Origin: a virus
DNA: 64,000 nucleotides
Strand: one strand, 5' to 3'
Virus record (IMG/VR): IMGVR_UViG_3300042341_001202
Location: 62,001 to 126,000 of that record
Below are positions 4,818 through 50,283 of the stretch, one piece after another (the stretch's first letter is position 1; each line of letters begins with the position of its first letter). The position numbers were made by a program, and so were the translations under genes. A model generated the notes under the pieces. That model made no database searches and was not told the origin of the DNA. It saw only the letters and a program-made list of their open reading frames with translations.

Positions 4818-5785
4818 TTGTCAACTCCATACAGTTTGCGATAGGCCTTTTCCAAGCTTTCAGTCCAATTCCACTGTTCCATTTTTTGGTATACGTTTAA
4901 GTAACTTATGTCACCAAACAAATGCACTGCCTCACCAATACTGCGTCCTGCTACGATTTCTGGATAACAGGAAAACACAACTGGATTTTTTAACAAAGGA
5001 AGAACTTTCTGGAACACAACATGATCACCCATACCGCAGTCAAGCACTACCATAGTATGGTCTCTATAATGTAAATGATTGCGGAAAATAGCATCATCTT
5101 TGGAATACATCAATTCATCTTGTTGTCTTATTCCACCAACAGGATTTTTCAAATGCCATGTTATTACACCAGGTACAATGAAGATATCAAAGCCCTTTTG
5201 TTTCAAACCCCATGTGAACAGGGTTTCTTCTCGGAACCCCACTGGACTTAAGCCCAAATTGTAGTCATGTATGCCTGCTCGATACACGAAACTACAATGC
5301 AAATGATCAACAGCTTTTTTCTCAGCAATGTAATCCCATTGAATGCTTTGTTCTTCAACTTTATCAATGGAACCAGTGGCGTTGGTATTTTTCAAAAATG
5401 GTGGTGTGAGTATACTACCTCCTACCGCACCAGTGTTGGCATTTAGATGACTTTTAAAGATTTTCAATGCATTGGGTTCAGCCACAGCGTCGTCATCTAG
5501 ACGCCACACCCATTCAAACCCCATACGATTGGCAATCTGATGGTTATGATGCGGACCCTGTTTCCGCCCAAAAATTACTTCCCAAGACAGTTTTTTCTCT
5601 TCCAAGATGCACAGAACATGGCGTAGAGTAGGTATCTCTCTAATATCCTCAGTAGGGTCATTGTCATCAAATATGACCAAGTGGTCAGGTAGTTCTGTTT
5701 GAGTTGCCACACTCATGATGCTCATGGCCAGTGTGCTGTGGTATCTGCCTCGAGTAGTAATGCTGCACAAGACTCCTTTTTTCAT
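4814..5785 (-). CDS. GT2-family glycosyltransferase with GT9-like C-terminal start
   Basis: 323 residues. Residues ~1-245 are a GT-A glycosyltransferase: N-terminal SITTRGRYHSTL, and the metal-binding WRLDDDA at ~95-100, followed by acceptor-side residues around GFREETLF. Residues ~246-323 change character: MVVLDCGMGDHVVFQKVLP looks like the N-terminal donor-independent half of a GT9 enzyme (GLGD motif). The matching C-terminal half is the next gene, 4350-4817. The ATG overlaps the stop of the GT2-FkbM gene upstream (ATGA). It probably modifies a surface glycan or virion protein; substrate unknown. Confidence 0.75.
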   Translation of the reverse strand: MKKGVLCSITTRGRYHSTLAMSIMSVATQTELPDHLVIFDDNDPTEDIREIPTLRHVLCILEEKKLSWEVIFGRKQGPHHNHQIANRMGFEWVWRLDDDAVAEPNALKIFKSHLNANTGAVGGSILTPPFLKNTNATGSIDKVEEQSIQWDYIAEKKAVDHLHCSFVYRAGIHDYNLGLSPVGFREETLFTWGLKQKGFDIFIVPGVITWHLKNPVGGIRQQDELMYSKDDAIFRNHLHYRDHTMVVLDCGMGDHVVFQKVLPLLKNPVVFSCYPEIVAGRSIGEAVHLFGDISYLNVYQKMEQWNWTESLEKAYRKLYGVDN

Positions 5786-7248
5786 ATTTTCACTCTTTCG
5801 TACTTCTCATTCCATACACCAGTTTGCGTTACTGTGCCATCTATGCCAAACCACAACAAGGGTATTTCAAATGTTTTCTTGAAACCATTGTTTTCAAGAT
5901 GTTCTGCAATTCTTTTGATATCCCTGAAATTGGAGTTGGGATTCATGTCATTGTGAACTTCCACAAAAATGGTTTTGAAGCGGCTCAAAACTTCAATTGG
6001 TGTATTCAGTAATACATTGAATTCATGCCCTTCAATATCCAGTTTCAAAACCAATTCAGTTCCCTCAATATTGTGTTTTTTTAACAGAGAAAGTAAGGTT
6101 ATGGTTTTCACAGACAGATTTTTTGGATCATAGGGTTGGAGCTGGCTGTTGACATCATCATCTTTGATTGATACCAATATGTCTTCTTGATCTGTAACAG
6201 CAAGATTATCTATCTGTATTTGAGGCAAAGAGCTTACTACATCTGCTAAATGTGTGGAGTAGACTTTGGGGTTAGCCTCTATAGCCAAGACTTTTGTGGC
6301 ACCATGAATGAGACTGAATATGCTAAATGTGCCAATATGAGCACCAATATCTACAACAATATTGCCTTCAAACTCATTTGGCAGAACATGATAACAATTT
6401 ATTTTGAATATTTCATCAAATAACACATTATTCAACTTTTTGAGCAGGCTAATTGGTTTATGAAATTTAGGCAATGTTTCTTGAAGCAGTTGCCAAGAGA
6501 ATTGGGCAGCGTTGGCTTCCACCCAAGCGGGATTATATTTTTGCGCAACCTTGATCATGTTCCCAGTGAAAATATTATCCCAATCCGGCACAAGTGATGG
6601 ATCATGAACTGTGCCTTCACCTTTGTGGTATAAAGGAAAATCACTTAACCACATTTTTAAATTATAGTCCATGGTGTTTTGCGCCACTTCAATTACTTCA
6701 AATCCTGCGTTTTCAGCCTCAATGGAAAATTCAATATCTTCTCCGCTACCAACACCATAGTCTTCATTCAACAAGCCTATTTTTTCAAAAACTTTTTTGT
6801 GAATCATCACACAAAAGAAAATAGCAAAATCACGGCCTGCATGTTCACTATACATTTTGTTTGTGCACGAAATACCGCATCGCACATTTGTTTCAAAGGG
6901 CAAGACCAGCCTAGACAACCAAGTGCCTTTTTCTTGACCCAGCAAAGTTACATCATTACTTAGTAATACAACTAGATCACAAGAGGCTTCTCTTATGCCT
7001 ACATTAGTGGCTTTGGAAAATCCCAATGGGGCGTCATTCCAAACAATTTTGAAATGATCCTCCATTCCCAGCACTTGAAATTGTTTTTGTAAGTTGGTTA
7101 GATAGGTTTTAGTATTATCAACACAGCCATTGGCTGAAATGATCAATTCTATATCTCGCATGTGCGAATATCTAAAAATTGACTCTAAACAGGGCTTGAG
7201 TAGGTCTTCACAGTGATTATAAGTGGGTATAACAATACTATATCTCAT
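5782..7248 (-). CDS. Bifunctional GT2 glycosyltransferase / FkbM methyltransferase
   Basis: 488 residues. Residues ~1-235 are a GT2 glycosyltransferase: YSIVIPTYNHCEDLL at the start and LLSNDV (95-100) as the DxD-like metal site. Residues ~290-480 are an FkbM-type SAM methyltransferase: motif I VVDIGAHIGTF (298-308), acidic loop AIEAN, and LKLDIEGHEFNVL (~401-413) typical of FkbM. It would transfer a sugar and O-methylate it. It follows the collagen fibre gene on the same strand, so the fibre is an obvious candidate target (inference). A degenerate relative of its first ~130 residues lies at 41553-41985. The start codon lies inside a hairpin. Confidence 0.85.
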   Translation of the reverse strand: MRYSIVIPTYNHCEDLLKPCLESIFRYSHMRDIELIISANGCVDNTKTYLTNLQKQFQVLGMEDHFKIVWNDAPLGFSKATNVGIREASCDLVVLLSNDVTLLGQEKGTWLSRLVLPFETNVRCGISCTNKMYSEHAGRDFAIFFCVMIHKKVFEKIGLLNEDYGVGSGEDIEFSIEAENAGFEVIEVAQNTMDYNLKMWLSDFPLYHKGEGTVHDPSLVPDWDNIFTGNMIKVAQKYNPAWVEANAAQFSWQLLQETLPKFHKPISLLKKLNNVLFDEIFKINCYHVLPNEFEGNIVVDIGAHIGTFSIFSLIHGATKVLAIEANPKVYSTHLADVVSSLPQIQIDNLAVTDQEDILVSIKDDDVNSQLQPYDPKNLSVKTITLLSLLKKHNIEGTELVLKLDIEGHEFNVLLNTPIEVLSRFKTIFVEVHNDMNPNSNFRDIKRIAEHLENNGFKKTFEIPLLWFGIDGTVTQTGVWNEKYERVKI

Positions 7249-7259
7249 ATAATGAGATA
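7241..7259. promoter_or_regulatory. Hairpin covering the start codon of the GT2-FkbM gene
   Basis: TATCTCAT-ATA-ATGAGATA, an 8-bp perfect stem with a 3-nt loop. The minus-strand ATG (7248-7246) is in the stem and no Shine-Dalgarno sequence is visible just upstream, so initiation may depend on coupling or unfolding. Confidence 0.4.
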
Positions 7260-7285
7260 GTTGTTTTCATTCAGAAGGTCAATAT

Positions 7286-11280
<3,995 letters not shown>

Positions 11281-35058: not shown

Positions 35059-35079
35059 CTCTAATCAAGGACCTTATAA

Positions 35080-35256
35080 ATGGCACAAATAGCCTGTCAA
35101 ACTATTTCAATTTCCATCAGCAAACTTATCAAGGATGATGAACAACTGGCTAGTGTGCTCTCTTCTGAGCAGCTTTTGGCATTGTTTGAAAGCTTGCCCA
35201 GTGTTGTAGAGCAGCTACTTGAAGACAGTAAACTGGTTATTGAAGTCTCTATTTGA
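35080..35256 (+). CDS. Short acidic helical protein
   Basis: 58 residues: MAQIACQTISISISKLIKDD, then EQLASVLSSEQLLALF and SVVEQLLEDSKLVIEV. It is acidic and predicted almost fully helical after the first 12 residues. Unknown function. Support comes from a GATAAATA motif 21 nt upstream, AAGG nine bases before the ATG, and clean fit between neighbouring genes. Confidence 0.55.
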   Translation: MAQIACQTISISISKLIKDDEQLASVLSSEQLLALFESLPSVVEQLLEDSKLVIEVSI

Positions 35257-35262
35257 CCTTTC

Positions 35263-35270
35263 CATAAATA
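35263..35270 (+). promoter_or_regulatory. Late-promoter-like motif CATAAATA
   Basis: 25 nt before the ATG at 35296, just after the stop of the short gene at 35080-35256. Confidence 0.55.
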
Positions 35271-35295
35271 TCGACAAATCAATTGTTGAGAAATT

Positions 35296-36003
35296 ATGGA
35301 AAGTCTTGTCTTATTACCAACTACTAGCGGTAAGGTCAATGTAACTGGCGAAAAGCAAAAAGGCGCAGGCTACACCAATTTTCTTGGCGGTAGTCATACA
35401 GTAGCCCTAACGTTAACAAATTTTACAGGCCGGATTTTAATTCAAGCCTCGTTGGCAGATAATCCAGTTGAACAAGACTGGTTTCCTGTTTATCTACAGT
35501 CAGACCTGCCTTATGTACAATTCCCTAGAGATTTGTTCAATCCCAGTGGCCTATTTGGTGGGGACACCGGCAGCTTTGCATATACATTTGTAGGCAATTA
35601 TGTTTGGGTAAGAGCTGTTGTAAGCAGAGATTATTTGACTCCAGCACCTATTGACGACAGCACGGTTGGCAGTGTTTCTGAAATACTTTTGAACTTTGGT
35701 GCCCTGAGTCCTGGATTTATCCCCAAAGGCCCCATACAAGGTCCCACCGGTCCTGCTGGCCCTCCTGGGTCTGCCCCAGTCACCAGCTTCCAAATGCCGT
35801 TTTCATCTCAAAATATTGTGACCGATGTGTTGACCGTTGTTCATGGCCTTGCACAGAGACTTGTGTTTGTTCAAGTATATGACACCAACTACCAACTGGT
35901 AAATCCCACAACAATAACCTTAATTGATGAGATGACTTGCCAATTGAATTTATCTGGGCAAGTGCCTATTTCTGGAGTTTGGTATGTTTTGGTGTCTAAA
36001 TGA
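35296..36003 (+). CDS. Virion fibre protein with shared C-terminal module
   Basis: 235 residues. The N-terminal ~145 are beta-rich (LGGSHTVALTLTNFTGRILIQAS, then FAYTFVGNYVWVRAVV), followed by a short collagen-like hinge (GPTGPAGPPG, ~153-162) and a C-terminal ~60-residue domain (HGLAQRLVFVQVYDTNYQLV, ending WYVLV) that matches the tail of 715-1140. It probably is a small trimeric fibre or fibre adaptor. First of the plus-strand fibre block. Confidence 0.7.
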   Translation: MESLVLLPTTSGKVNVTGEKQKGAGYTNFLGGSHTVALTLTNFTGRILIQASLADNPVEQDWFPVYLQSDLPYVQFPRDLFNPSGLFGGDTGSFAYTFVGNYVWVRAVVSRDYLTPAPIDDSTVGSVSEILLNFGALSPGFIPKGPIQGPTGPAGPPGSAPVTSFQMPFSSQNIVTDVLTVVHGLAQRLVFVQVYDTNYQLVNPTTITLIDEMTCQLNLSGQVPISGVWYVLVSK

Positions 36004-36024
36004 CAAACATATGTGGTGTAAAAT

Positions 36025-36354
36025 ATGAGAGCTAAAGAATTTATTCGAGAATTTACTGTAAATGTGCCTGTTACAATCAACATCCCCTTGGGCGATGTGT
36101 TGAAAGCGCAAGCTGACAGTGATGTGATAAATCCTGGAGTGCGTTATGGTGAAGAGGGCGATGCCAAGTGGAGTCCACCACTCCAACAACACCTTGACAC
36201 TGTAAAAGACAGCGTGGGGCCCACAACTGAAGATCCCACTGTGATAAACCCAGAGGATGATTTTCATACACCTCAACAGTCCAATATCTCAAAAATTACA
36301 GCAAAAAAAGATTTCATACCAACTGTAAGTATCAAACCCTCTATTTTGGGTTGA
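36025..36354 (+). CDS. Hypothetical protein with MRAKEF-type N-terminus
   Basis: 109 residues. The MRAKEFIRE opening is typical of many small T4-like marine phage proteins of unknown function. The rest is polar with GDVLKAQADSDVINPGVRYG, Pro-rich and probably partly disordered. It lies between two fibre genes; a TCTAAATG sequence 22 nt upstream is a weak late-like motif. No function assigned. Confidence 0.6.
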   Translation: MRAKEFIREFTVNVPVTINIPLGDVLKAQADSDVINPGVRYGEEGDAKWSPPLQQHLDTVKDSVGPTTEDPTVINPEDDFHTPQQSNISKITAKKDFIPTVSIKPSILG

Positions 36355-36361
36355 AGCTCTT

Positions 36362-38374
36362 GTGACTCAAATTCGTAAAATTTGGACCAGCAAGTTCACA
36401 AATGATATAAATGAGTATGTTGGTCGCGATGGGGAGATATTCTACGCAAGCGGGGAAGTTGAGTTACGTTTTTCTGACGGCGTAACTCCTGGTGGGTTAC
36501 CATTTACCCCTGGCGGTGGAGGGGGTACTGGCACAACTGGCGCACAAGGACCCACTGGGCCAACAGGGGCAAGAGGCATTAGTGGTTATTCTGGGGTAAG
36601 CACCCTTGGCTCAACTGGACCAACTGGGCCCAACAGTGCTAGTGGTTATTCTGGGATATCAGGTTACTCAGGCGAGTCTGGAACAAGCGGCTACTCTGGC
36701 AGCGGAGTATCAGGCTACTCTGGTCAAGGTGGTTATTCAGGAACTTCAGGAAAATCTGGAGAATCTGGGTATTCTGGTGCCAGTGGGTATTCTGGTGCCA
36801 GTGGGTATTCTGGTGCCAGTGGGTATTCAAGTGAGTCTGGCCGGTCAGGTTACTCTGGTGAAAGTGGTTATTCTGGCAGTGGAGTATCAGGCTACTCTGG
36901 AGAGAGTGGGTACTCTGGAGAGAGTGGGTACTCTGGAGAGAGTGGGTACTCTGGAGAGAGTGGTTATTCAGGTTATTCAGGTTACTCTGGTTATTCAGGT
37001 TACTCTGGTTATTCAGGTTATTCTGGAGAGAGTGGTTATTCAGGTTATTCTGGAGAGAGTGGTTATTCTGGGATATCAGGTGAGTCAGGCTATTCTGGAG
37101 AGTCAGGTGTCTCTGGATATTCTGCCTATTCAGGATACTCTGGAGAGAGTGGTTATTCAGGGGCATCAGGTGAGTCTGGCTATTCAGGAGAGAGCGGATA
37201 TTCTGGAGGCAGCGGAACTAGTGGAACTAGTGGTGTAAGTGGATGGAGCGGCACAAGTGGAACTAGTGGATGGAGCGGCACAAGTGGAACTAGTGGATGG
37301 AGCGGCACAAGTGGAACCAGTGGATGGAGCGGCACAAGTGGAACTAGTGGAACAAGTGGCACAAGCGGCTGGAGTGGCACAAGTGGAACTAGTGGATGGA
37401 GCGGAACAAGCGGCTTTAGTGGTGTCAGCGGAACTAGTGGGTTCAGCGGAACTAGCGGAGCAAGCGGCTTTAGTGGTGTCAGCGGAGCAAGCGGCTTTAG
37501 TGGTGTCAGCGGATTCAGTGGAGCAACTGGCTTAATAGGACCTACTGGTAGTGGCGCAACTGGTGCAACTGGCACCCCAGGTGTAACAGGTGTAACAGGA
37601 CCAACAGGTCCTGTTGGTCCTGCGTCTACATTAGCAGCTAGTTCTTACATTTTAACTGCTATCTTAACAAGTGATCAAACAGTTGCTAGCGCAAGTACGT
37701 TAGTTTTACCCTTAGCTGATTATTATGATCCACAAAACTGGTGGAACGCCAGCACATATACATTCAAACCAACTGTTGCAGGTTATTATAATTTAAGTTT
37801 CGGTGTTTGGGTCAGTGCAGCGTCTGTGGCAACTAATCAATATAACGGCCAGATACTTAAAAACTCTGGAACTATATTAATTGCCCAAGTTCAAACTGTA
37901 ACGTCTACGGGAATTTCACTTGGTGGCAGCAAAGTTGTTTACTTCAATGGATCTACTGACTCTGCTCAAGTTACTGCCTTTAACGGTACCGGAAGTAATG
38001 TTACAGTGCAATATGGCACTGCTGACGGTCCAGGAACTTGGCTTTCAGCACATTTAATTGCATATGGCGCTGATGGAGTAACAGGACCTACAGGCGCTAG
38101 CGGAACTAGTGGCGTAAGTGGATGGAGTGGCACAAGTGGCTGGAGTGGCACCTCTGGGTTCAGTGGATTCAGTGGCACAAGTGGATTCAGTGGCACAAGT
38201 GGATTCAGTGGAACAAGCGGCTTTAGTGGTGTCAGCGGAACTAGTGGCACAAGCGGCTTCAGCGGAGCAAGCGGCTGTAGTGGTGTCAGCGGCTTTAGCG
38301 GAACTAGTGGATTCAGTGGCGGAGCAGGTGTTACTACAGGCAAAGCTATTGCGATGGCAATTGTTTTTGGATAA
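36362..38374 (+). CDS. Collagen-like GYSG/GTSG fibre with C1q-like domain
   Basis: 670 residues from a GTG at 36362. N-terminal ~50 residues (VGRDGEIFYASG, ELRFSDGVTPGG) are a head motif found on phage fibres and receptor-binding proteins. Residues ~60-400 are G-x-S-G repeats, first GYSGESGYSG, then GTSGWSGTSG and GFSGVSG. Residues ~425-565 are a globular domain: TFKPTVAGYYNLSFGVWVSA is a good C1q/TNF-type signature. A second short GTSGFSG tract and a ~15-residue tail close the protein. This head, collagen, C1q order recalls collectins. It probably forms a trimer with the jelly-roll as receptor binder. Confidence 0.85.
   Translation: MTQIRKIWTSKFTNDINEYVGRDGEIFYASGEVELRFSDGVTPGGLPFTPGGGGGTGTTGAQGPTGPTGARGISGYSGVSTLGSTGPTGPNSASGYSGISGYSGESGTSGYSGSGVSGYSGQGGYSGTSGKSGESGYSGASGYSGASGYSGASGYSSESGRSGYSGESGYSGSGVSGYSGESGYSGESGYSGESGYSGESGYSGYSGYSGYSGYSGYSGYSGESGYSGYSGESGYSGISGESGYSGESGVSGYSAYSGYSGESGYSGASGESGYSGESGYSGGSGTSGTSGVSGWSGTSGTSGWSGTSGTSGWSGTSGTSGWSGTSGTSGTSGTSGWSGTSGTSGWSGTSGFSGVSGTSGFSGTSGASGFSGVSGASGFSGVSGFSGATGLIGPTGSGATGATGTPGVTGVTGPTGPVGPASTLAASSYILTAILTSDQTVASASTLVLPLADYYDPQNWWNASTYTFKPTVAGYYNLSFGVWVSAASVATNQYNGQILKNSGTILIAQVQTVTSTGISLGGSKVVYFNGSTDSAQVTAFNGTGSNVTVQYGTADGPGTWLSAHLIAYGADGVTGPTGASGTSGVSGWSGTSGWSGTSGFSGFSGTSGFSGTSGFSGTSGFSGVSGTSGTSGFSGASGCSGVSGFSGTSGFSGGAGVTTGKAIAMAIVFG
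36570..37530 (+). repeat. GYSG/GTSG collagen-like tandem repeat region
   Basis: Tandem G-x-S triplets encoded by near-identical units, including four TCTGGAGAGAGTGGGTAC-type copies (36897-36960) and four GGATGGAGCGGCACAAGTGG-type copies (37240-37400). A shorter tract recurs at 38095-38330 and again in the cassette at 41990-42070. Confidence 0.85.
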
Positions 38375-38388
38375 GGATTTAAAAAGTT

Positions 38389-38748
38389 ATGTCAGCCCCT
38401 AATATAGTAAATGTCACAACAATTATTGGTAAAACTGCGGTACAAGCAGTTGGTACAAGTGCTACAGCAATAGTTACCAATTCAGCAGCAAGTAACAAAG
38501 TCTTTAAAATCAACAGTCTAGTAATTTCAAATGTTGACGGGACCAACAATGCAGACATTACTGTGGATTTGTTCAGAAGTTCTGTAGCGTATAGACTAGC
38601 GAATACCATTTCCGTACCAGCAGACGCATCGCTAGTTGTTATCAGCAAAGATACTTCAATTTATCTTGAAGAAGGCGACAGCATACGTTTGACTGCTAGT
38701 GCTGTAAGTGATCTGGAAGCTGTGTGTAGCTATGAGGAAATCAGTTAG
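38389..38748 (+). CDS. Small virion structural protein, beta-rich
   Basis: 119 residues: ATAIVTNSAASNKVFKINSLVISNVDG, ADITVDLF-RS, then SIYLEEGDSIRLTAS and a last strand. Same length and strand order as 11365-11718 and 3982-4314. AAGGA precedes the ATG. The stop overlaps the next gene's GTG start (TAGTG). Probably a fibre-associated small protein or chaperone; the family is not named. Confidence 0.65.
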   Translation: MSAPNIVNVTTIIGKTAVQAVGTSATAIVTNSAASNKVFKINSLVISNVDGTNNADITVDLFRSSVAYRLANTISVPADASLVVISKDTSIYLEEGDSIRLTASAVSDLEAVCSYEEIS

Positions 38749-39779
38749 TGAATACTAACTTTGATAACGGCGGTGTTATTGGGATTGAAAATAATCCTAC
38801 ATCAACTACGGCCAAAGGAGTCTGGAGCTCAGAAGCACAAGCTGATGCAAAATACGGGAATACCTGGCCTGGGCAAGCACTCTACGGATTTACGTCAGCT
38901 ACATTTACACCTGGCACTGCTAGCGGCAGTTCAGGACCAACACTGGCACAGGCACAGGGTGGGATGACCGGCACGCCTACACCGTCAGGATGGAACACCA
39001 ACACAGCATATTTCAGCGTAACATCCGGGATACAGCTATGGACGGTTCCTTTGACAGCGTCATACCGGATAACAGCAATAGGTGCTAGGGGAGGCAGCGG
39101 TGCTACCGGTGTTGGTGCCGGTGCACGCATGATAGGCACCTTCTCCCTTACCCAGGGCGAAAAACTCAAGATATTGGTAGGACAACAGGGTGTCACCGGT
39201 AATAATGCGTGCGGTGGTAGCAAGGGCGGCGGCGGCGGCAGCAGCTTCGTGACTAAACAGGACAACACCATACTGATCATAGCTGGCGGAGGCGGCGGAG
39301 GTTCGGCAGGCACATGGGCCAACAAGGATGCCAGCATACTCACCTCTGGCAATGCCGGGGGAGATACCGGAGGAGGTGGAGGCACACTTGGTTCTGGCGG
39401 TGGTGCCACCAATGGATGTGTTTCAGTTGGTGGTGGCGGTGGTGGCTATAGCGGCAACGGCGCAGCTGGCGGCGGCGGTGAAGGCGCTTCAAGCGGCGGT
39501 AACAGTTTTCTCAATGGCGGCACGGGGGGGACCGGAGGTGTGCAATACGGTGGCACGGCGGCTAACGGCGGGTTTGGCGGTGGAGGCGGTGCCAGCAGCT
39601 ACCTAGGTGGTGGTGGTGGTGGCTACAGTGGCGGCGGTGCTGGCGGTGTGGGGGCGTGTACCTGTCCTGCCTTGGGACCAGGAGGTGGCGGTGGCAGCAT
39701 CAACAACGGCAGCAACCAATCCAACACAGCCGGGGTAAACACCACCGGAAATGGCAGCGTACTCATTGAAAAACTCTAG
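38748..39779 (+). CDS. Glycine-rich tail adhesin
   Basis: 343 residues from a GTG. The N-terminal ~75 residues (GGVIGIENNPTSTTAKGVWS, then YGFTSATFTPG) are a fibre head with G-VWS. The C-terminal ~230 are dominated by glycine runs (SKGGGGGSSFV, IIAGGGGGGSAG, YLGGGGGGYSGGGAGG) separated by short variable stretches. This is the pattern of polyglycine-II adhesins such as gp38 of S16-like phages and of ALK-type Gly-rich domains, where the loops between glycine strands bind receptor. Four Cys are conserved-looking. A good candidate receptor-binding protein. Confidence 0.75.
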   Translation: MNTNFDNGGVIGIENNPTSTTAKGVWSSEAQADAKYGNTWPGQALYGFTSATFTPGTASGSSGPTLAQAQGGMTGTPTPSGWNTNTAYFSVTSGIQLWTVPLTASYRITAIGARGGSGATGVGAGARMIGTFSLTQGEKLKILVGQQGVTGNNACGGSKGGGGGSSFVTKQDNTILIIAGGGGGGSAGTWANKDASILTSGNAGGDTGGGGGTLGSGGGATNGCVSVGGGGGGYSGNGAAGGGGEGASSGGNSFLNGGTGGTGGVQYGGTAANGGFGGGGGASSYLGGGGGGYSGGGAGGVGACTCPALGPGGGGGSINNGSNQSNTAGVNTTGNGSVLIEKL

Positions 39780-39798
39780 CAGATAAAAGACCGTATAA

Positions 39799-40674
39799 AT
39801 GGGCAAAGGCAATATCATAGGCAAACCAAATGATCCAACTACTTCAGTAGCTTCAGGAGTATGGTCTTTGAGAGAAAATTTTTTGGCAGTAAAGCATAAT
39901 CGTTGGCCACCCGTAATTCTTTCCCTTGGACAACAGGCATATACCACTCCCGGTACATACACATGGACATGCCCTGCGGGAGTAAATAGCGTGAGTGTAG
40001 TATGCGTTGGGGGAGGGGGCGGAAAAGGTGCCACAGCGACCACATATCTAGGTGGCGGTGGCGGTGGTTTGGGTTATAAAAATAACATCAGTGTTACGCC
40101 AGGCACATTATATACTGTGGTTGTTGGTGCAGGTGGCGGTGCTGGTGCAAATGGTGCTGCTAGCTATTTCATATCCGCTTTAACCGTACAAGGTGGAGGT
40201 GGAACTTATGCAGGTGCAGGTGGAACTTATGTTGGAGACGGCGGAGGTAATGGTGGTGCTTCAAATACTGGCGCGTATTCTGGTGGTGGTGGCGCAGGTG
40301 GCTACACAGGTAATGGTGGTGCTGCGGGCGTTACAAGTGGCGCATCAGGACCTGGCAACGCTGGTTCCGGCGGTGGCGGCGGTGGAGGTAGCTCTTATTA
40401 TGCAACAGCTGGGGGCGGCGTAGGAATACTGGGACAAGGAGCAAATGGAACAGCAGGGGGTAATGGGGGAGCGAGTAGCAGTGCAGGCGGCGGCGGCGGC
40501 AGTGGTGGCGAAAATGGCAAGGGTTACACAGGTACAGGTGTGGGTGCATTGTATGGCGGCGGTGGGCTTCAGAGTGACGGCGGCGGTAGCGTTAGTGGCG
40601 GGAATGGGGCCGTTCGCATAATATGGCCAGGAACCACTAGACTGTTCCCGACAACCCAGACTGGGAATCTATAA
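39799..40674 (+). CDS. Glycine-rich tail adhesin (second copy type)
   Basis: 291 residues. N-terminus KGNIIGKPNDPTTSVASGVWSLRENF shares the I-G--N-PT-T--GVWS pattern with the preceding adhesin. Then YTTPGTYTWTCPAGVNSVSVVCVGGGGG, a widespread phage tail-tip signature, and long Gly-rich blocks (YLGGGGGGLGYKNNISVTPG). The end reads GNGAVRIIWPG, typical for this family. Likely an alternative or paired receptor-binding protein. Confidence 0.75.
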   Translation: MGKGNIIGKPNDPTTSVASGVWSLRENFLAVKHNRWPPVILSLGQQAYTTPGTYTWTCPAGVNSVSVVCVGGGGGKGATATTYLGGGGGGLGYKNNISVTPGTLYTVVVGAGGGAGANGAASYFISALTVQGGGGTYAGAGGTYVGDGGGNGGASNTGAYSGGGGAGGYTGNGGAAGVTSGASGPGNAGSGGGGGGGSSYYATAGGGVGILGQGANGTAGGNGGASSSAGGGGGSGGENGKGYTGTGVGALYGGGGLQSDGGGSVSGGNGAVRIIWPGTTRLFPTTQTGNL

Positions 40675-40675
40675 G

Positions 40676-40849
40676 ATGTTGTTGACAAACCTCAAGCTGC
40701 TGGATGACCCTTCAAAATACCATGAACGGAAGGATTCATGCCAATCATGTTCGAGATTTACTATAATGAAGACTTGCCAGGAATGCGGATGCATCATGCT
40801 AGCGAAATGGAAGTTCCATTTCGCCAAATGCCCATTGGGCAAGTGGTAG
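40676..40849 (+). CDS. Short zinc-binding-type protein
   Basis: 57 residues with cysteines at 22, 25, 34, 37, 39 and 52: CQSC, TCQECGC and FAKCPLGKW. The spacing and C-terminal CPLGKW match a family of tiny phage proteins with two CxxC-type sites. It starts one base after the adhesin stop. The longer frame at 40738-41028 overlaps it but lacks the Cys logic and is taken as a shadow. Confidence 0.65.
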   Translation: MLLTNLKLLDDPSKYHERKDSCQSCSRFTIMKTCQECGCIMLAKWKFHFAKCPLGKW

Positions 40850-40912
40850 ATTACAAGATGATATTTGTCAAGACAATCACTACTGTCGCAGTCAATTACT
40901 ATTGCAATCATT

Positions 40913-40930
40913 CACTATTGCAAAATAGTG
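40913..40930. other. Hairpin with GCAA tetraloop in the 180-nt gap
   Basis: CACTATT-GCAA-AATAGTG, a 7-bp stem with a GNRA-type loop. ACTATTGCAA occurs twice (40898-40907, 40914-40923). The gap 40850-41029 holds nothing else I can support beyond the ribosome site of the next gene. Confidence 0.35.
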
Positions 40931-41029
40931 CTTATAGTATCTCACTTGATAACAACAACAAAAACTCTATCTCGGAGGTCTCATCAATACTACTATGCCA
41001 AGATTCTCAGGAACTTAAGGAGACATAAT

Positions 41030-41533
41030 ATGCTGTATTCCTATAAAAACCAATGGCCTCAGTCGTTGCCATTCAGGATAAGACTATTAGATGGTAGAAC
41101 ACGAACTGATCCTAGCACTTTCACTCCAGAAGAAATTGATGATGCTGGATATGTGCCTGTAAGTGATCCTCCTCAACTACAGGACAATGAGAAATTGTTG
41201 TGGAATGATATCACAGGTGCGTGGATAGTGACCGAATATACCCTGGAAGAACTTGAAATGCTGAAGCAGACAAAATGGAAAGATGTGCGACAACAGAGAG
41301 ATATACTTATTCAGTCGGTTGCATGGAGAGTTGAACGCTGTAATCGATACTTAAGATTGGGTCTCACTCCAATTGATGATATCCTCACTCTCGAACGCTA
41401 TATTCAAGAACTAGCTGATATACCTCAAACACAACAAGATCCTTTCAATATTATTTGGCCTAGTTTACACATTGTTCCTGTGGAATCAGTGAATCCTTAT
41501 CCTCCGGGATTCCTTCCGGAGATGAACGTGTAG
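41030..41533 (+). CDS. Tail fibre assembly-like protein
   Basis: 167 residues from the ATG at 41030, which has AAGGAG eight bases upstream. N-terminal half: LPFRIRLLDGRTRTDPSTF-PEEIDDAGY. C-terminal half: RDILIQSVAWRVERCNRY, TLERYIQELADIPQTQQDPFNI-WP, the pattern seen in phage tail fibre assembly chaperones (R-D-L-W-x-R, then Y-ALRDIP). It probably helps assemble one of the fibres or adhesins next to it. Homology is motif-level only. Confidence 0.65.
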   Translation: MLYSYKNQWPQSLPFRIRLLDGRTRTDPSTFTPEEIDDAGYVPVSDPPQLQDNEKLLWNDITGAWIVTEYTLEELEMLKQTKWKDVRQQRDILIQSVAWRVERCNRYLRLGLTPIDDILTLERYIQELADIPQTQQDPFNIIWPSLHIVPVESVNPYPPGFLPEMNV

Positions 41534-41552
41534 TTTCAATCTCTAAATTGTA

Positions 41553-41985
41553 GTGCTATCAAAAAGTTTGTATAATTTTGTTGTGACTCTACAATTCAAA
41601 TACTCTATTATCATACCAACCTACAACCACTGCAATGACTTGTTAGAACCTTGCACTACAAGCCTTTGCTCTCATAACAAAATGACTGACGTTGAATTGA
41701 TAGTCAGCGCCAATGGTTGCACAGACAACAAATGTGACTATCTACAAGATCTACAACAGCAATTTGTCAGTGTTGGCATGGCTGATCACTGTCAAATTGT
41801 ATGGAGTGATCAACCCTTGGGATAAAGTGGTGCCAACAATCTAGCTATCAAGCTAGCCAAAGGTCAACGCATAATTTTGCTCAACAATGATGTTGTGTTT
41901 CTGCCTCAAGAGAGAAATTTTTGAATTTGAGCTCTCAATCAACCATTTGAAATCAACCCCCGAGCAGGAATAAGCTGTGTATTCA
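41553..41985 (+). pseudogene. Degenerate GT2 glycosyltransferase remnant
   Basis: Translation in one frame gives KYSIIIPTYNHCNDLLEPC, ELIVSANGCTDN, QIVWSDQPLG, then stop (41823), SGANNLAIKLAKGQRIILLNNDV, two more stops (41922, 41928) and RAGISC. This aligns with residues ~1-130 of the GT2-FkbM protein at 5782-7248 (YSIVIPTYNHCEDLL, ELIISANGCVDN, VVLLSNDV, RCGISC). Three in-frame stops and loss of the rest show it is dead. Homology ends at 41985, where the same frame runs straight into fibre repeats. Confidence 0.85.
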
Positions 41986-42137
41986 AAAGCTGGAGCGGAA
42001 CAAGTGGATGGAGCGGATTTAGCGGTGCGGGCACAAGTGGATTTTCTGGCACTAGTGGATGGAGCGGAACAGCCGGCAGCTCAACCTCAATTACTGCTAC
42101 AAATACCACAACAAATTCAACATTTTATCCGGTTTTT

Positions 42138-42527
42138 GTGGACACTGCTGGCTCTAGCACTACTCCTAGGATACGCAGCACTGCAACAGCATTCACCTAT
42201 AATCCTGGCACTGGTGAAGTGGCTGCTGTTGACTTCAACAGCATCAGTGATGCTGCGTTCAAAACAAACATCTCAACAATTACCGACAGTTGGGCTATTC
42301 TCAAGGAACTCAATCCCGTTAGTTTTGACTGGAAGCATGCCAGCAAACACAGTTTTGGTTTATTGGCTCAAGAAGTAGAGCAAGTTATACCATCTCTTGT
42401 GAGTACAACCGCGTCAGGGAAAACTGTGGCATATATTCAGTTGATACCGCTGTTGTTGAAGGCATTGCAAGAGCAGGCCGAAAGTATTGAAGTATTGAAA
42501 AAACACTTGGGACTAAATCAAAGTTAA
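42138..42527 (+). CDS. Orphan fibre C-terminal cassette with S74 chaperone domain
   Basis: 129 residues from a GTG at 42138, but the same frame is open back to 41931 and carries GTSG/GFSG collagen-like repeats from 41988 (SWSGTSGWSGFSGAG), then TNTTTNSTFYPVFV. The domain itself ([48 protein letters not shown]) is a close relative of the last ~150 residues of the giant collagen fibre 7300-11277. There is no normal start or fibre head. It could be a silent donor cassette, an ORF making only the chaperone, or simple wreckage. Confidence 0.7.
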   Translation: MDTAGSSTTPRIRSTATAFTYNPGTGEVAAVDFNSISDAAFKTNISTITDSWAILKELNPVSFDWKHASKHSFGLLAQEVEQVIPSLVSTTASGKTVAYIQLIPLLLKALQEQAESIEVLKKHLGLNQS

Positions 42528-42545
42528 GTAATGTTCTCACGTCTC

Positions 42546-42553
42546 TATAAATA
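42546..42553 (+). promoter_or_regulatory. Late promoter TATAAATA (exact)
   Basis: Exact late consensus 33 nt before the ATG at 42587, with GGAG in the leader. It probably drives the whole RCC1-type propeller array. Confidence 0.7.
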
Positions 42554-42586
42554 AGTGCAACCGAGTACTCTAAAAGGAGCGCGAAG

Positions 42587-42844
42587 ATGGCCATAAAAAT
42601 ATCAGGCGTTACAGTCATCGCCGATAACCAAAATTTGACTATTACTGGGTATGCCAATTTCAGCGGCACATCTGCACTAAAATTGCCTGTGGGCACAGAT
42701 GGTGAAAGACCAACAGCAGCAACAGGACAAATCCGTTACAATACTACGCAAGCCAGTTTTGAAGGCTACGACGGCACAGTTTGGGGCAGTTTTGGTGGCC
42801 AAGACAACACTGCTCGAACACTAGCTTTGTTGGCACTGACTTAA
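42587..42844 (+). CDS. Short fibre-type structural protein
   Basis: 85 residues: ISGVTVIADNQNLTITGYANF, then KLPVGTDGERPTAATGQIRYNTTQASFEGYDGTVWGSFGG split across the second half. The P-GT-x-RP--A-GQIRYNTT---FEGYDG--W unit is a very common phage fibre module, also in the giant protein near its N-terminus (GMIRFNTD, EYYNGTAWY). This small protein likely forms a base or collar piece for the propeller proteins that follow. Good promoter and ribosome site. Confidence 0.75.
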   Translation: MAIKISGVTVIADNQNLTITGYANFSGTSALKLPVGTDGERPTAATGQIRYNTTQASFEGYDGTVWGSFGGQDNTARTLALLALT

Positions 42845-42848
42845 TCAC

Positions 42849-44198
42849 ATGTCTGTGGCTGCTGGCAAACTCATCACACAAGCCAACGCATGCATTGTCT
42901 TGGCCAATCAAGATGTTCTGCAAACTGCTCAGTTGGCAGGTATTCAAGCGGCTTTGAATGGGATCTATTGTGTAGCAAATTGTGCAGCATTGCCAACAGC
43001 ATGTGACAATACAGGCAGGTTTATTTGGATAACGGACATTGGCGACTATCGCTACAGTGATGGCACCCAATGGACCAATGACTTCAATACAAATTGGACA
43101 GGCGCATGTGTGTTTGGGTGGGGTTGGAACCTCTGTGGAGGTTTGGGCAATAATACAACAACTTCCCAGAGTTCACCTGTTCGAGAAATAAGCTCAAGCT
43201 GCAATTGGGTTACTGTCACTAGCAATACAACATCAGCAGGAATAAAATCAGACCTTTCACTATGGACTTGGGGTTACAACAATTGTGGTGCACTGGGCAA
43301 TAATGCAACAGCTAACCAAAGTAGTCCAGTTCGTGAAATAAGTAGTTCTTCAACCTGGACAAGTGTAGGGTCATTTGCGTTCCATCTTTTGGCTTTAAAA
43401 TGTGATAGCACACTGTGGGCATGGGGCGACAACTTTTGCGGTAATTTGGGCGATGGCACCAAAACAACCCGCAGTTCTCCAATCCGCGAGGTATCATCAA
43501 GTACAAATTGGTGTTCAATCAGCAGTGGAGGGCTGCGACACTCTGCTGCTGTCAAGTCTGATGGCAGTCTGTGGACCTGGGGAGTCAACACATGTGGAGT
43601 ACTGGGAACCAACAACACAACTAACTTCAGTTCACCAGTGCGAGAAATAACAAGCGGAACCTCCTGGTGCAGAATACAAAACGGTTACAACCTAGCAGTT
43701 GCGTTGAAAAAAGACAATACACTTTGGAGCTGGGGCTCAGGTGGATATGGCGTTCTCGGTAACAACTCTACCTCAAATGCCAGCAGCCCAGTTCGAGAAG
43801 TTTCCAGCTCTACAAATTGGTGCACATTTGGGCCTGGCAAGTATCATTCAAATGCTATAAAAACCGATGGCACTCTGTGGGCATGGGGTTTAAATACATG
43901 TGGAGAGCTGGGAAATAATACTGCAACCAGCCGGAGCAGTCCTATACAAGAAATTTCATCATCAACAACTTGGTGTCAAGTATCTGGTGGATGCGCGCAT
44001 ACCGCGGCGTTAAAAACAGATGGCACATTGTGGACCTGGGGAAATGCATCATGTGGCGCGTTGGGGAACAACACAGTTACATCAGTTTCCAGTCCTGTGA
44101 GAGAGATAACATCAGCCACGTCGTGGAGTTGTGTAACTAGCAGTACAAGGCAAACAATGGCCATTCAAGGTAAAATTTCAGGATTTGTAGCACTATGA
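42849..44198 (+). CDS. RCC1-type seven-bladed propeller protein, head type A
   Basis: 449 residues. Head ~1-95: helical start, AALPTACDNTGRFIWITD and DYRYSDGTQWTNDF. Then seven ~50-residue RCC1 repeats (D-LW-WG-N-CG-LG-NT----SSPVREI-SS--W), a complete propeller. In eukaryotes RCC1 repeats bind chromatin/Ran; in phages such propellers are likely host-binding or virion surface parts (inference). Blades here differ more from one another than in the later copies. Head matches 47569-48930. The stop overlaps the next ATG. Confidence 0.85.
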   Translation: MSVAAGKLITQANACIVLANQDVLQTAQLAGIQAALNGIYCVANCAALPTACDNTGRFIWITDIGDYRYSDGTQWTNDFNTNWTGACVFGWGWNLCGGLGNNTTTSQSSPVREISSSCNWVTVTSNTTSAGIKSDLSLWTWGYNNCGALGNNATANQSSPVREISSSSTWTSVGSFAFHLLALKCDSTLWAWGDNFCGNLGDGTKTTRSSPIREVSSSTNWCSISSGGLRHSAAVKSDGSLWTWGVNTCGVLGTNNTTNFSSPVREITSGTSWCRIQNGYNLAVALKKDNTLWSWGSGGYGVLGNNSTSNASSPVREVSSSTNWCTFGPGKYHSNAIKTDGTLWAWGLNTCGELGNNTATSRSSPIQEISSSTTWCQVSGGCAHTAALKTDGTLWTWGNASCGALGNNTVTSVSSPVREITSATSWSCVTSSTRQTMAIQGKISGFVAL

Positions 44199-45514
44199 AC
44201 TTAAATCAAATTGAATTTGCCCTTAGCCAAAAAATCGCAGCAGGCAACGACAATCTAGATTTGCTCACATATACACGGGCTATTCAACAACTGAGAACAG
44301 GCGCTATGTTTGTTGTAGCCTGTTCTCAATTATTACCTACTGCATCAGCCAGCAATGGTAAATTGTATTTGGTTGAAGACGCTCAAAGAGTAGTTTTCAG
44401 TAATTCTGTATTTTGGATTCCTATTGTATCACAGTCTAACACAGGTTGGGCGTGGGGGTCAAACAGTTGTGGACAATTGGGCACAAGTAATACAACCAAT
44501 CAATCAAGTCCTGTCAGAGAGATTACAAGCTCCTGCAACTGGCTGCAACTCAGAGCTGGTTCGGTAAATTCAATGGGGTTAAAACAGGATAGTTCCTTAT
44601 GGCTTTGGGGCAATAACGTATGTGGTCAGTTGGGAGACAACACTGTTACCAGTAAGTCAAGTCCTGTAAGAGAAATCACCAGCAGCACAACTTGGTGTCA
44701 AATAGGTACGTCTTTTTACACAATGTCTGGTGTTAAAAGTGATGGCAGTTTGTGGGCATGGGGAAAGAACACATATGGCCAAGTGGGTGATAACACTATA
44801 GTTAACAAATCTAGCCCAGTGCGTGAAATCAGCAGCAGTGCCACTTGGTGCCAAACCTCACCTGGATATTCGCATACTGCTGCACTAAAAACAGATGGAA
44901 CCCTTTGGGGTTGGGGAAATAATGGGACTGGGCAACTGGGCACATGCAATCTGTCTAATAGGTCTAGTCCTGTGCGAGAAATTTCCAGTTCAACCAATTG
45001 GTGTCAAGTTTCTGCCGGCCTCTACGGTACCCTAGCACTCAAAACAAGTGGTACTTTATGGGGATGGGGGTCAAACGAGTGTGGCAAATTTGGCAATAAT
45101 AGCACTAGCAATGTATCAAGTCCCGTTCAAGAGATAAGTAGCTCCACCACTTGGTGTCAAACTTCCGCTGGGTTTGCTCACTCTATTGCCTTAAAAACAA
45201 CTAACACACTATGGGCATGGGGTTGCAACGCTTGTGGTGCTTTAGGAGACAACTCTACTGTATCCAGGAGCTCACCAATTCAGGAAGCAACAAGTGCAAC
45301 CAATTGGTGCCAAGTCACTGCCGGCTTTGGCAGAAGTGGCGCTTTAACAACCGCAAGCACTTTATGGATGTGGGGTAATAACAATTGTGGCCAACTTGGT
45401 AACAACTCTACAATCAGAAGTTTATTGCCTATACGTGAAATATCCAGTTCAAGCTCCTGGAGTGAAGTTAGCATAGGACAGGGCCTGTTTACTGTAGCCC
45501 GGCAAACAATTTAA
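44195..45514 (+). CDS. RCC1-type seven-bladed propeller protein, head type B
   Basis: 439 residues. Head: NLNQIEFALSQKIAAGND, YTRAIQQLRTG, LLPTASASNGKLYLVED, with no YSDG segment; matches the head at 48930-50270 (QQLRSG, DLPTAAANVGELYYV). Seven RCC1 blades follow (W-WG-N-CGQLG, SSPVREI). ATGA overlap with the previous gene. Likely a structural or adhesive virion protein assembling with types A and C (inference from gene order). Confidence 0.85.
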   Translation: MNLNQIEFALSQKIAAGNDNLDLLTYTRAIQQLRTGAMFVVACSQLLPTASASNGKLYLVEDAQRVVFSNSVFWIPIVSQSNTGWAWGSNSCGQLGTSNTTNQSSPVREITSSCNWLQLRAGSVNSMGLKQDSSLWLWGNNVCGQLGDNTVTSKSSPVREITSSTTWCQIGTSFYTMSGVKSDGSLWAWGKNTYGQVGDNTIVNKSSPVREISSSATWCQTSPGYSHTAALKTDGTLWGWGNNGTGQLGTCNLSNRSSPVREISSSTNWCQVSAGLYGTLALKTSGTLWGWGSNECGKFGNNSTSNVSSPVQEISSSTTWCQTSAGFAHSIALKTTNTLWAWGCNACGALGDNSTVSRSSPIQEATSATNWCQVTAGFGRSGALTTASTLWMWGNNNCGQLGNNSTIRSLLPIREISSSSSWSEVSIGQGLFTVARQTI

Positions 45515-45531
45515 GATAAAAGGAATAAAAT

Positions 45532-46182
45532 ATGTATGTGTTAGTACATAACGAAAGAGTGTTGGTAGGTCCAATGAGTTGGAATAGGCCAATGTTTGAA
45601 GGCGGTCTGGACCGCCTTAAGATTTCAGCATTGCTGCCGCGCAATGACCCTGAAACCGTTCCTATTGTGATAGACGATGCCACCTATTTGACCACAGCAC
45701 AGCTGGTGATACCCGATCATAACTCTCGAACACAAACCTATTATGGTCCGTTCTGGGATTTCACTAATCCTGCAATTGCCGTTGGTACATTTGAGATCAA
45801 ATACAAGCAAATTTGGGAGATACAAGCTCAGTTGCGAGACGAGGCACAAGCCAATCGCTACACTGCTGAAGTGGGTGGCACACACACTGTGATACAAGGT
45901 AAAAAAGTTACTATTGACACTAGCAGAGAAGGTAGGAACATTTTTGTGCAAAAATACTCTCTTATGGCAACTGATGAAACAGTGAATTGGAAGTTTCCGG
46001 AAACTTGGCTCACTCTCACAAAAGATGAATTAGGCCAATGCGTCGCTGCTGGTGCAGCGCATATTCAAGCCACATTTGACTGGGAAAAACTCAAAGATGA
46101 TGAAATCACTGCCTCAACCACTATAGAGGAGTTGGAAGTGTTAGTGGTAGGCAACGTGCCCAATCTAGTGAGTGGTGGTTAA
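45532..46182 (+). CDS. DUF4376-type phage protein
   Basis: 216 residues: MYVLVHNERVLVGPMSWNR, FEGGLDRLKISALLP, then RDEAQANRYTAEVGGT, GRNIFVQKYSLM, NWKFPETWLTLTKDELGQ and AHIQATFDWEKLKDDEI. This is the layout of the DUF4376-type proteins found beside fibre genes in many marine phages, thought to aid fibre assembly. Placed between propeller genes B and C and not repeated in the second triplet. Confidence 0.75.
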   Translation: MYVLVHNERVLVGPMSWNRPMFEGGLDRLKISALLPRNDPETVPIVIDDATYLTTAQLVIPDHNSRTQTYYGPFWDFTNPAIAVGTFEIKYKQIWEIQAQLRDEAQANRYTAEVGGTHTVIQGKKVTIDTSREGRNIFVQKYSLMATDETVNWKFPETWLTLTKDELGQCVAAGAAHIQATFDWEKLKDDEITASTTIEELEVLVVGNVPNLVSGG

Positions 46183-46193
46183 GGAAGCGCAAG

Positions 46194-47567
46194 ATGGCCA
46201 ATAACCTCTGCTGTGCAACACTTCTCAACTCTGTGGTGAGCGAAATATGCTCAAGTGGCACACTCACATGCAGTATGGATGTGGTGTTAGCAGCAGCATC
46301 ACAAGACGCTGTTGACAGTAATCGGAGTAGTTTCATCAGCATAGATACCTTATTTGGTTGCAGTTGTTCAACTGGGTTACCAAATGGGCATGTTGTTTTT
46401 TTGTGCGATGCACTTGTGCCCGTAGTGAGCCTCAATGGCTGTTGGATTGGTTTTGATGGCAGGAATTTCACTCCTACAGTGGGAGGAGCTCTTTGGAGTT
46501 GGGGCGGCAACAACAACGGTCGATTGGGAGACAACACTATTACCAATCGCTCAAGCCCAGTAAGAGAAATCACCAGCAGCACCACTTGGTGTCAAACTTC
46601 AGCTGGCTTTTATCATACCAGTGCATTAAAAACAGATGGCACACTTTGGAGTTGGGGCAGAGGCAACTACGGTCGATTGGGAGACAACACTGCTACAAGT
46701 AAGTCAAGTCCTGTAAGAGAAATCACCAGCAGCACCACTTGGTGTCAAACTACGTCTGATAACAGAAGTACACATGCAATAAAAACAGATGGTTCACTTT
46801 GGAGTTGGGGCAGCAATGCCTCTGGTCAGTTGGGAGACAACACTATTACCAATCGCTCAAGCCCAGTAAGAGAAATCACCAGCAGCACCACTTGGTGTCA
46901 AACAGCATCCAGTAATTATACTGCCAGTGCAGTAAAAACAGATGGCACACTTTGGAGTTGGGGCTCCGGCGGCTATGGTCGATTGGGAGACAACACTGCT
47001 ACAAGTAAGTCAAGTCCTGTAAGAGAAATCACCAGCAGCACCACTTGGTGTCAAACTTCAGCTGGTGGTATAAGCACTAGTGCTATAAAAAAAGACGGCA
47101 CACTTTGGAGTTGGGGAGGAGGTTTGCAGTTGGGAGACAACACAACAACAAACCGGTCAAGTCCAGTGAGAGAAGCCAGCAGCAGCACTACTTGGTGTCA
47201 AACATCAGTTGGATATCGGCACGCGTCTGCAATAAAAACAGATGGCGCTCTTTGGAGTTGGGGCTCTAACGGGTGTGGTCAGTTGGGAGACAACACAACA
47301 ACTGGTCGCTCAAGTCCAGTGAGAGAAATCACCAGCAGCACCACTTGGTGTCAAACTTCGGCTGGTTGTGTCAATAACAGTGCATTAAAAACAGATGGTA
47401 CACTTTGGACTTGGGGAGGCAATTTGTGTGGTCAGTTGGGAGACAACACTATTACCAATCGATCAAGTCCAGTGAGAGAAATCACCAGCAGCACCACTTG
47501 GTGTCAAACTTCGGCTGGTAAAGTGGATACTAGTGCTATTAAAACTATATTAGTTGTTCCGCAATAA
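46194..47567 (+). CDS. RCC1-type seven-bladed propeller protein, head type C
   Basis: 457 residues. Head ~1-100: Cys/Ser-rich (NNLCCATLLNSVVSEICSS, LFGCSCSTGLPNGHVVFLCD), ending CWIGFDGRNF, matching the head at 50284-51633 (SWVGLDGRVL). Seven blades, highly uniform (LGDN-ITNRSSPVREITSS, TWCQTSAG); blade 5 lacks about three residues (WGGGLQLGDN). Adjacent blades are nearly identical in DNA, pointing to recent repeat expansion or gene conversion. Confidence 0.85.
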   Translation: MANNLCCATLLNSVVSEICSSGTLTCSMDVVLAAASQDAVDSNRSSFISIDTLFGCSCSTGLPNGHVVFLCDALVPVVSLNGCWIGFDGRNFTPTVGGALWSWGGNNNGRLGDNTITNRSSPVREITSSTTWCQTSAGFYHTSALKTDGTLWSWGRGNYGRLGDNTATSKSSPVREITSSTTWCQTTSDNRSTHAIKTDGSLWSWGSNASGQLGDNTITNRSSPVREITSSTTWCQTASSNYTASAVKTDGTLWSWGSGGYGRLGDNTATSKSSPVREITSSTTWCQTSAGGISTSAIKKDGTLWSWGGGLQLGDNTTTNRSSPVREASSSTTWCQTSVGYRHASAIKTDGALWSWGSNGCGQLGDNTTTGRSSPVREITSSTTWCQTSAGCVNNSALKTDGTLWTWGGNLCGQLGDNTITNRSSPVREITSSTTWCQTSAGKVDTSAIKTILVVPQ

Positions 47568-47568
47568 C

Positions 47569-48930
47569 ATGACCACATCAGCAAAAACACTACAAACACA
47601 AATTACTTCACGTTTGGCAGCAGGTGGGCTTACTCCATTAAGCTGTTGTCAGTTGCAGGGTGCACAATGTATTCTCGACACTCAAGCAGTGGTTTCTTTT
47701 TCCAATCTCGCTGCTTTGCCCACTGCGACCTTGAATCAAGGAAGGATGGTGTATCTACAAGACACTTGCCAGTATCGCGTCAGTGATGGCATTTGTTGGA
47801 CAACAGACTTTCGAAGCATCGTGCAGCGTGTTGAACCCAGCGTTTTTTCTTGGGGAGCCAATGGGTTTGGTCAGTTGGGAGACAACACTGTTACTTGTCG
47901 GTCAAGTCCGGTGAGAGAAATCAGCAACAGCGGCAATTGGTGTCAAACTTCGGCTGGTGGTGGTCACACCAGTGCAATAAAAACAGATGGCTCGCTTTGG
48001 AGTTGGGGCTATAACACGGGTGGTTCGTTAGGAGACAACACAACAACAAGTCGCTCAAGTCCCGTAAGAGAAATCAGCAGCAGCAGTAATTGGTGCCAAA
48101 CTGCGGCTGGTAGTAATAGTCCCACTAGTGCAATAAAAACTGATGGCACACTTTGGGTGTGGGGACTCAATCTCTGTGGGCAGTTGGGCGATAACACAAC
48201 AACAAGTCGCTCAAGTCCGGTAAGAGAAATCAGCAGCAGCAGCAATTGGTGCCAAATTGCCTTTGGTGCGAGCATAGCTAGTGCAGTTAAAACAGATGGT
48301 TCACTATGGACTTGGGGATGTGGTATTTGGGGTCAGTTAGGAGACAACTCCACCAATACGCGGTCAAGTCCAGTGAGAGAAATCACCAGTTCCACCAATT
48401 GGTGCCAAACTTCCCCTGGAAGTCAAGTATCCAGTGCAGTGAAAACAGACTCCACATTGTGGGTTTGGGGACGCAATTTCTGCGGTACATTGGGAGACGG
48501 AACCTCAACCAATAGATCAAGTCCAGTGAGAGAAGCCCTCTCTAGTACTTCTTGGTGTCAAACTGCCTCAGGTTCCAATGCCGGCACCGCAGTAAAAACA
48601 GATGGCACACTTTGGACCTGGGGGTACGGCAGTTGTGGTGTGTTGGGAAACAACACCACCGCATGTACTGGAGTACCAGGGCGAGAAATCACCAGCAGCA
48701 ATAATTGGTGTCGAACCTCAACTTCCAGAAATCAGACAGTCAGTGCATTGAAAACCGATGGTTCACTTTGGAATTGGGGCCGGAACCAGTATGGTCAGTT
48801 GGGAGACAACACAACAACTGGTCGCTCAAGTCCAGTAAGAGAAATCAGCAGTTTTACTACTTGGTTTCAAACTTCGGCATCTGCCCATATTAGTGCCTTA
48901 AAAATCCTAACCTGCAAAGGATTCCTTTGA
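47569..48930 (+). CDS. RCC1-type seven-bladed propeller protein, head type A'
   Basis: 453 residues from the ATG at 47569, two bases after the previous stop (TAACATG). Head: LQTQITSRLAAGGLTPL, AALPTATLNQGRMVYLQD, QYRVSDGICWTTDF, paralogous to 42849-44198. Seven RCC1 blades; blade 6 has an unusual TACTGVPGREI in place of SSPVREI. The stop shares one base with the next ATG (TGATG). Confidence 0.85.
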   Translation: MTTSAKTLQTQITSRLAAGGLTPLSCCQLQGAQCILDTQAVVSFSNLAALPTATLNQGRMVYLQDTCQYRVSDGICWTTDFRSIVQRVEPSVFSWGANGFGQLGDNTVTCRSSPVREISNSGNWCQTSAGGGHTSAIKTDGSLWSWGYNTGGSLGDNTTTSRSSPVREISSSSNWCQTAAGSNSPTSAIKTDGTLWVWGLNLCGQLGDNTTTSRSSPVREISSSSNWCQIAFGASIASAVKTDGSLWTWGCGIWGQLGDNSTNTRSSPVREITSSTNWCQTSPGSQVSSAVKTDSTLWVWGRNFCGTLGDGTSTNRSSPVREALSSTSWCQTASGSNAGTAVKTDGTLWTWGYGSCGVLGNNTTACTGVPGREITSSNNWCRTSTSRNQTVSALKTDGSLWNWGRNQYGQLGDNTTTGRSSPVREISSFTTWFQTSASAHISALKILTCKGFL

Positions 48931-50270: not shown

Positions 50271-50283
50271 ATGGAGACAGAAC

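Follow-up and report, generated by a model that had tools for sequence, protein, structure and literature searches.

How does a broken glycosyltransferase gene come to run, without change of frame, into the tail of a phage fibre? The question is raised by positions 41553-42527 of the window, by which we mean the whole 64,000-nt stretch of viral DNA that was analyzed (IMG/VR record IMGVR_UViG_3300042341_001202, positions 62,001 to 126,000). These 975 bp on the + strand translate as a single frame that passes from the 5' part of a glycosyltransferase (GT2) gene through GTSG repeats to an S74 domain. The two points to be settled are (i) where each part came from and (ii) whether the S74 piece still serves a purpose.

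A glycosyltransferase remnant in frame with a fibre tail

The fused frame is interrupted by TAA at 41823 and by TGA at 41922 and 41928, and closes with TAA at 42525-42527. After the stops it reads WSGTSGWSG... repeats, followed by the S74 chaperone domain. Pfam detects Glycos_transf_2 in the first 90 residues (3.7e-06) and Peptidase_S74 in the tail (2.9e-14). Translation and Pfam thus confirm the original prediction of a GT2 remnant with these three stops, in frame with GTSG repeats and S74. Assembly or sequencing error is ruled out as the cause, because seven further IMG/VR assemblies carry the identical frame, making eight. The 975 bp are unchanged in these further contigs of the same phage (L003-L009); six of the seven show no more than one mismatch to the window across 20,555 bp, and the seventh, which meets a contig end, matches over 14,181 bp. 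A 35-mer across the junction occurs in exactly those seven IMG/VR contigs and no others. The longest contig of this phage is 328,603 bp, and the window's own virus record is 148 kb.

Features of the locus and of related places in the same phage (window coordinates unless a contig is named)
Feature	Position	Strand	Basis or remark
Distantly paralogous pair: GT2-FkbM and a separate fibre with GPT repeats and S74	5782..11277	-	Protein identity, Pfam
Live collagen-like tail fibre: resident head and repeats, ending ...GVTTGKAIAMAIVFG in place of S74	36362..38374	+	Head colinear with L073 fibre 4431-6482; Collagen Pfam
Acquired segment, smallest extent	38335..41995	+	Left edge somewhere in repeats 36523-38335; right edge 41995
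p119, 119-aa small cassette protein	38389..38748	+	IMG/VR relatives; S-SKS1 homologue 52%
Glycine-rich protein, candidate adhesin	38748..39779	+	ORF; weak ALK/LTK glycine-rich domain match; slot shared with other adhesin-like genes
Second glycine-rich protein, candidate adhesin	39799..40674	+	Pfam Gly_rich_2 5.5e-09
Tail-fibre assembly chaperone	41030..41533	+	Phage_tail_APC 3.4e-08; PHROG tail fiber assembly; 94% protein identity to L026
GT2 remnant: glycosyltransferase gene cut after its 5' part	41553..41995	+	Aligns gap-free with the whole gene L026 508-1290
Junction; TGGAGCGGAAC is also a GTSG-repeat word	41988..42001	+	Homology edges: L026 ends 41995, L073 starts 41997
Stranded 3' end of resident fibre gene: GTSG repeats + S74	41996..42527	+	L073 fibre C-terminus homology; S74 Pfam
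85-aa gene, original right neighbour marker	42587..42844	+	87% identity to L073 6546-6803, directly after S74 fibre there
Small serine recombinase, resolvase/invertase family	L301 5845-6486 (G001:C1 ~63.9 kb)		~32 kb off, among unrelated genes

Origins of the two sides of the join

The left side matches L026, a 5.1-kb contig found by searching with the chaperone gene just upstream (41030-41530; 94% protein identity). At the DNA level it can be aligned gap-free with window 41065-41995 (90.4% identity), and homology stops at 41995. The intact GT2 that was to be sought in related phages is present in L026 as a whole gene (508-1290, 260 aa), followed by a GT2-FkbM gene and more sugar-related genes. 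Measured against it, the window copy carries three stops and lacks its 3' half, so that the frame is disrupted where relatives are intact, as in a pseudogene. Where L026 487-935 aligns to window 41547-41995, the two sequences are about 96% identical before ~41735 and 76% identical from that point on, and all three stops fall within the 76% stretch. Such a drop would mean either that GT2 is itself mosaic, with an apparent breakpoint at ~41735, or that the true donor differs from L026.

The right side matches L073, found by searching with the window's protease (32372-34741). Window 31934-36522 corresponds to L073 6-4591 at 77% DNA identity; the match then jumps and resumes at window 41997-44526 (L073 5964-8487). 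In L073 a single fibre gene (4431-6482) combines the head of the window fibre (36362-38374) with the S74 end of the stranded piece, and its C-terminus is the nearest relative of the stranded tail (76% amino acid identity over 141 residues). The 85-aa gene and then an RCC1-repeat gene follow it, as in the window. In L077, which is more distant (protease 56%), a single gene at the same locus likewise joins head and S74, and there is no cassette. Right-hand landmarks are kept in these two relatives only, both of them contig fragments. The two homology edges and the intact state of each side in relatives are thus direct observations, and they locate the two boundaries of a host-recognition swap almost to the base.

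Because the single L073 fibre carries that head and that tail, the "orphan" S74 piece is, judged by homology, the 3' end displaced from the fibre gene at 36362-38374. The tail had originally been described as lacking a fibre head; the head lies upstream in the same orientation, with a new C-terminus. The intact fibre to be looked for at this place in related phages is found as one head-to-S74 gene in both L073 and L077.

Relatives of the two parts also adjoin each other on the other strand of the window, where an S74 fibre (7300-11277) lies beside a GT2-FkbM gene (5782-7248). This pair is real, as originally reported. It is too distant to be the source of the fused piece (66% protein identity for the tail and 53% for GT2), L073 being closer for the tail (76%) and L026 for GT2 (90% DNA). 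An S74 fibre followed directly by GT2 recurs in L019, L020, L021, L023, L028, L030, L033, L039, and L077; modification of the collagen-like fibre by the glycosyltransferase is one possible reason for the pairing.

The acquired cassette and the formation of the join

Between the two homology blocks lies at least 3.7 kb of acquired DNA, encoding a new fibre end, p119, two glycine-rich proteins, the chaperone, and the GT2 fragment. DNA similarity to cassettes of other phages begins at ~38307-38345. The new fibre end reads GKAIAMAIVFG, a C-terminal motif common to many fibres upstream of p119 homologues. Relatives of p119 occur at 80 or more IMG/VR loci, on contigs of very different sizes, with 60-83% identity among the non-identical ones. 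An open frame with this type of fibre end precedes the p119 relative in 46 of 73 loci, and a chaperone relative lies in the same contig in 27 of the 73. The cassette order is shared by L242 and L252, and p119/chaperone pairs occur in L154. Neither p119 nor the chaperone is present in the L073 and L077 contigs (fragments), and each occurs once in the 328-kb contig, which holds no donor copy of the cassette elsewhere. The segment is therefore found in otherwise different phages and missing at the locus from near relatives, as a mobile cassette would be, with the qualification that L073 and L077 are fragments. We found no donor contig spanning both edges, L026 beginning inside the chaperone gene, and no bacterial genomes carrying the chaperone.

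The order fibre, small protein, adhesin-like proteins, chaperone (36362-41533) is directly observed in S-SKS1, L242, and L252 as well. Because the Synechococcus phage S-SKS1 (NC_020851, 6206-15173) has this gene order, the segment is a known kind of putative host-recognition cassette. S-SKS1 encodes a long fibre/baseplate protein, a 120-aa protein, two large proteins, and a chaperone; identity to the window proteins is 52% for the 119-aa protein and 40% for the chaperone, and the two middle proteins are likened by position only. Unlike the window, its annotated stretch has no adjoining GT2 remnant or stranded S74 piece. In the Alteromonas phages V22, A5, and P24, host-recognition modules are common to unrelated phages, and a central fibre, a 107-119-aa protein, a tail fibre, and a chaperone travel together (PMC10579305). 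The likeness lies in a fibre, a ~119-aa protein, and a chaperone moving as a module between unrelated phages. The V22 and A5 chaperones, however, are assigned to DUF4376, whereas that of the window cassette is Phage_tail_APC, and our p119 search matched no Alteromonas phage at E 1e-3. Swapping of host-recognition parts between phages is already a known kind of event.

Two side observations concern these genes. The first glycine-rich protein (38748-39779) resembles human ALK/LTK receptors in their glycine-rich domain (E 3e-10), possibly through composition only. L242 1-1162 contains tandem fibre genes whose head repeats are shared; the end is S74 in one and GKAIAMAIVFG in the other.

We consider it probable that the resident fibre gene took up, by recombination within its collagen-like repeats, a host-recognition cassette from an L026-like phage, and that the old tip was thereby left stranded. 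The cassette would have brought the new fibre end, the 119-aa protein, the two glycine-rich candidate adhesins, the chaperone, and the first part of GT2. The left crossover would have fallen in the repeats, so that the resident head now bears the incoming end. The right crossover would have fallen where GT2 codons and fibre repeat both read Trp-Ser (TGGAGC), cutting GT2 and stranding the resident S74 end behind it, in the same frame through the coinciding codons. The 9-mer TGGAGCGGA occurs four times in the 64 kb; one copy is at the join and the other three lie in GTSG repeats. Because both parents read Trp-Ser in the same frame at the join, the in-frame fusion is probably incidental and would need no selection; by chance one join in three is in frame. 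Fibre tips may thus be replaceable by insertion into collagen-like repeats, with the old tip left behind, and such stranded leftovers can resemble puzzling gene fusions in annotation.

We infer the order and direction of these events from the relatives. The single head-to-S74 fibre is likelier than the cassette state to be ancestral, because L073 and L077, which differ in depth, both keep it and lack p119 and the chaperone. Cassette gain is also more probable than a simple deletion, since at the locus these two show one head-to-S74 fibre and no cassette. Of the originally suggested recent deletion that joined two genes, the joining holds (L026-like on the left to 41995, L073-like on the right from 41997), and the deletion probably gives way to a gain. 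A less simple deletion would start from a tandem array of the present fibre and cassette, a whole GT2 with sugar genes, and a second S74 fibre, and would run from GT2 into the repeats of that second fibre. One such event would yield the same junction; further sugar genes do follow GT2 in L026, and in L242 an S74-type and an IVFG-type fibre stand in tandem, their head duplicated. We nevertheless regard this scenario as unlikely: given the cassette-free single fibre of L073 and L077 it needs a prior gain plus the deletion, and the S74 fibre of L242 and L252 precedes the cassette rather than following it.

State of the stranded tail and comparison with fibre switches

If the cassette was gained in this way, the S74 end left behind it is most probably debris that is not expressed and has not had time to decay. 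The S74 piece (example peptide, SWAILKELNPVSFDWK) shows no sign of excess decay by codon-position counts against L073 or by relative-rate count, which upholds its description as a domain of coding quality. These counts take the place of the proposed dN/dS, as dS of the tail is saturated. Differences from L073 by codon position are 35/23/93, a third-position bias like that of intact neighbours. When L020, L077, and the other S74 tail of the window are used to polarise the changes, 8 lineage-specific amino acid changes fall in the stranded tail and 10 in the intact L073 tail. With no excess decay, the S74 part would either have been cut off recently or still be under selection, recency and retained function being inseparable here under saturated dS and low decay. 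A recent cut is the simplest reading, and an open, undecayed frame alone is no proof of function.

The piece might still be made, either on its own as a small protein, with GTG 42138 as one possible start, or as a GT2-fibre fusion via stop readthrough, and an open frame of 129 aa from this GTG does contain the S74 domain. We think this extremely improbable. Within 41996-42527 there is no in-frame start before that GTG, no ribosome-binding site is visible there, and L073 has an internal Val codon at the aligned position. Readthrough would have to pass the three stops of the GT2 part, which are of two kinds, and neighbour genes end with ordinary stops. A promoter and terminator scan gave a result no better than chance, and the S74 tail matched no solved structures by sequence. 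We infer that the tail is silent.

The original prediction proposed a silent cassette, in which the S74 piece is stored as an alternative end and recombines with the live fibre via GTSG repeats to restore the old tip. The undecayed, coding-quality frame would suit such a role, a serine recombinase is encoded ~32 kb away in the phage, and the repeats of live fibre and stranded piece align in the same frame. The best alignment of those repeats, however, covers 33 of 40 bases with a longest exact match of 21 bp, rather than the long homology or specific sites that a silent cassette would share with the live gene, and there are no strong flanking inverted repeats. Recombinants joining this tail to other fibres were not found; at the assembly level none of the eight assemblies joins the live head to S74. 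Direct orientation rules out inversion, recombination via the repeats would delete the cassette and prevent switching back, and recency accounts for the absent decay. The proposal is thus not supported, and we judge it highly improbable. It is very unlikely, too, that the S74 end is a retained reserve, with rare GTSG-repeat recombination deleting the cassette and restoring the ancestral tip; if true, this would be a one-way, population-level host-range fallback.

An inversion switch is rejected on the direct orientation and on the position of the sole small serine recombinase, ~32 kb away with no nearby inverted sites. This was the only Resolvase-family gene found, and neither a serine recombinase of the large Recombinase family nor a tyrosine integrase was detected. 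Inverted repeats of at least 24 nt were not found near it, and the fibre region has only weak ones; the locus therefore lacks the invertase gene and inverted sites of an invertase-driven switch. Phages Mu and P1 store alternative fibre 3' ends beside the live gene in invertible cassettes with a DNA invertase. The window likewise has an alternative 3' end beside a live fibre gene, but in direct orientation, with no flanking inverted sites and no adjacent invertase. In the gp37/gp38 adhesin exchange of T-even phages, the proteins at the tip are glycine-rich, and the tip is altered when fibre genes recombine. The window resembles these phages in its glycine-rich proteins and tip-changing fibre recombination, but here the old tip stays behind the new one, and no homology of the cassette to gp38 was found. 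The literature on stranded or orphan fibre ends yielded no matching account.

Beyond the stranded tail and the 85-aa gene, window 42849-51633 holds six tandem RCC1-repeat protein genes (~440-460 aa) with differing N-termini, assigned by Pfam for 42849-44195 only and by sequence resemblance for the other copies. A DUF4376 protein (45532-46182) sits among them, and L073 has at least four RCC1-repeat genes in the same place.
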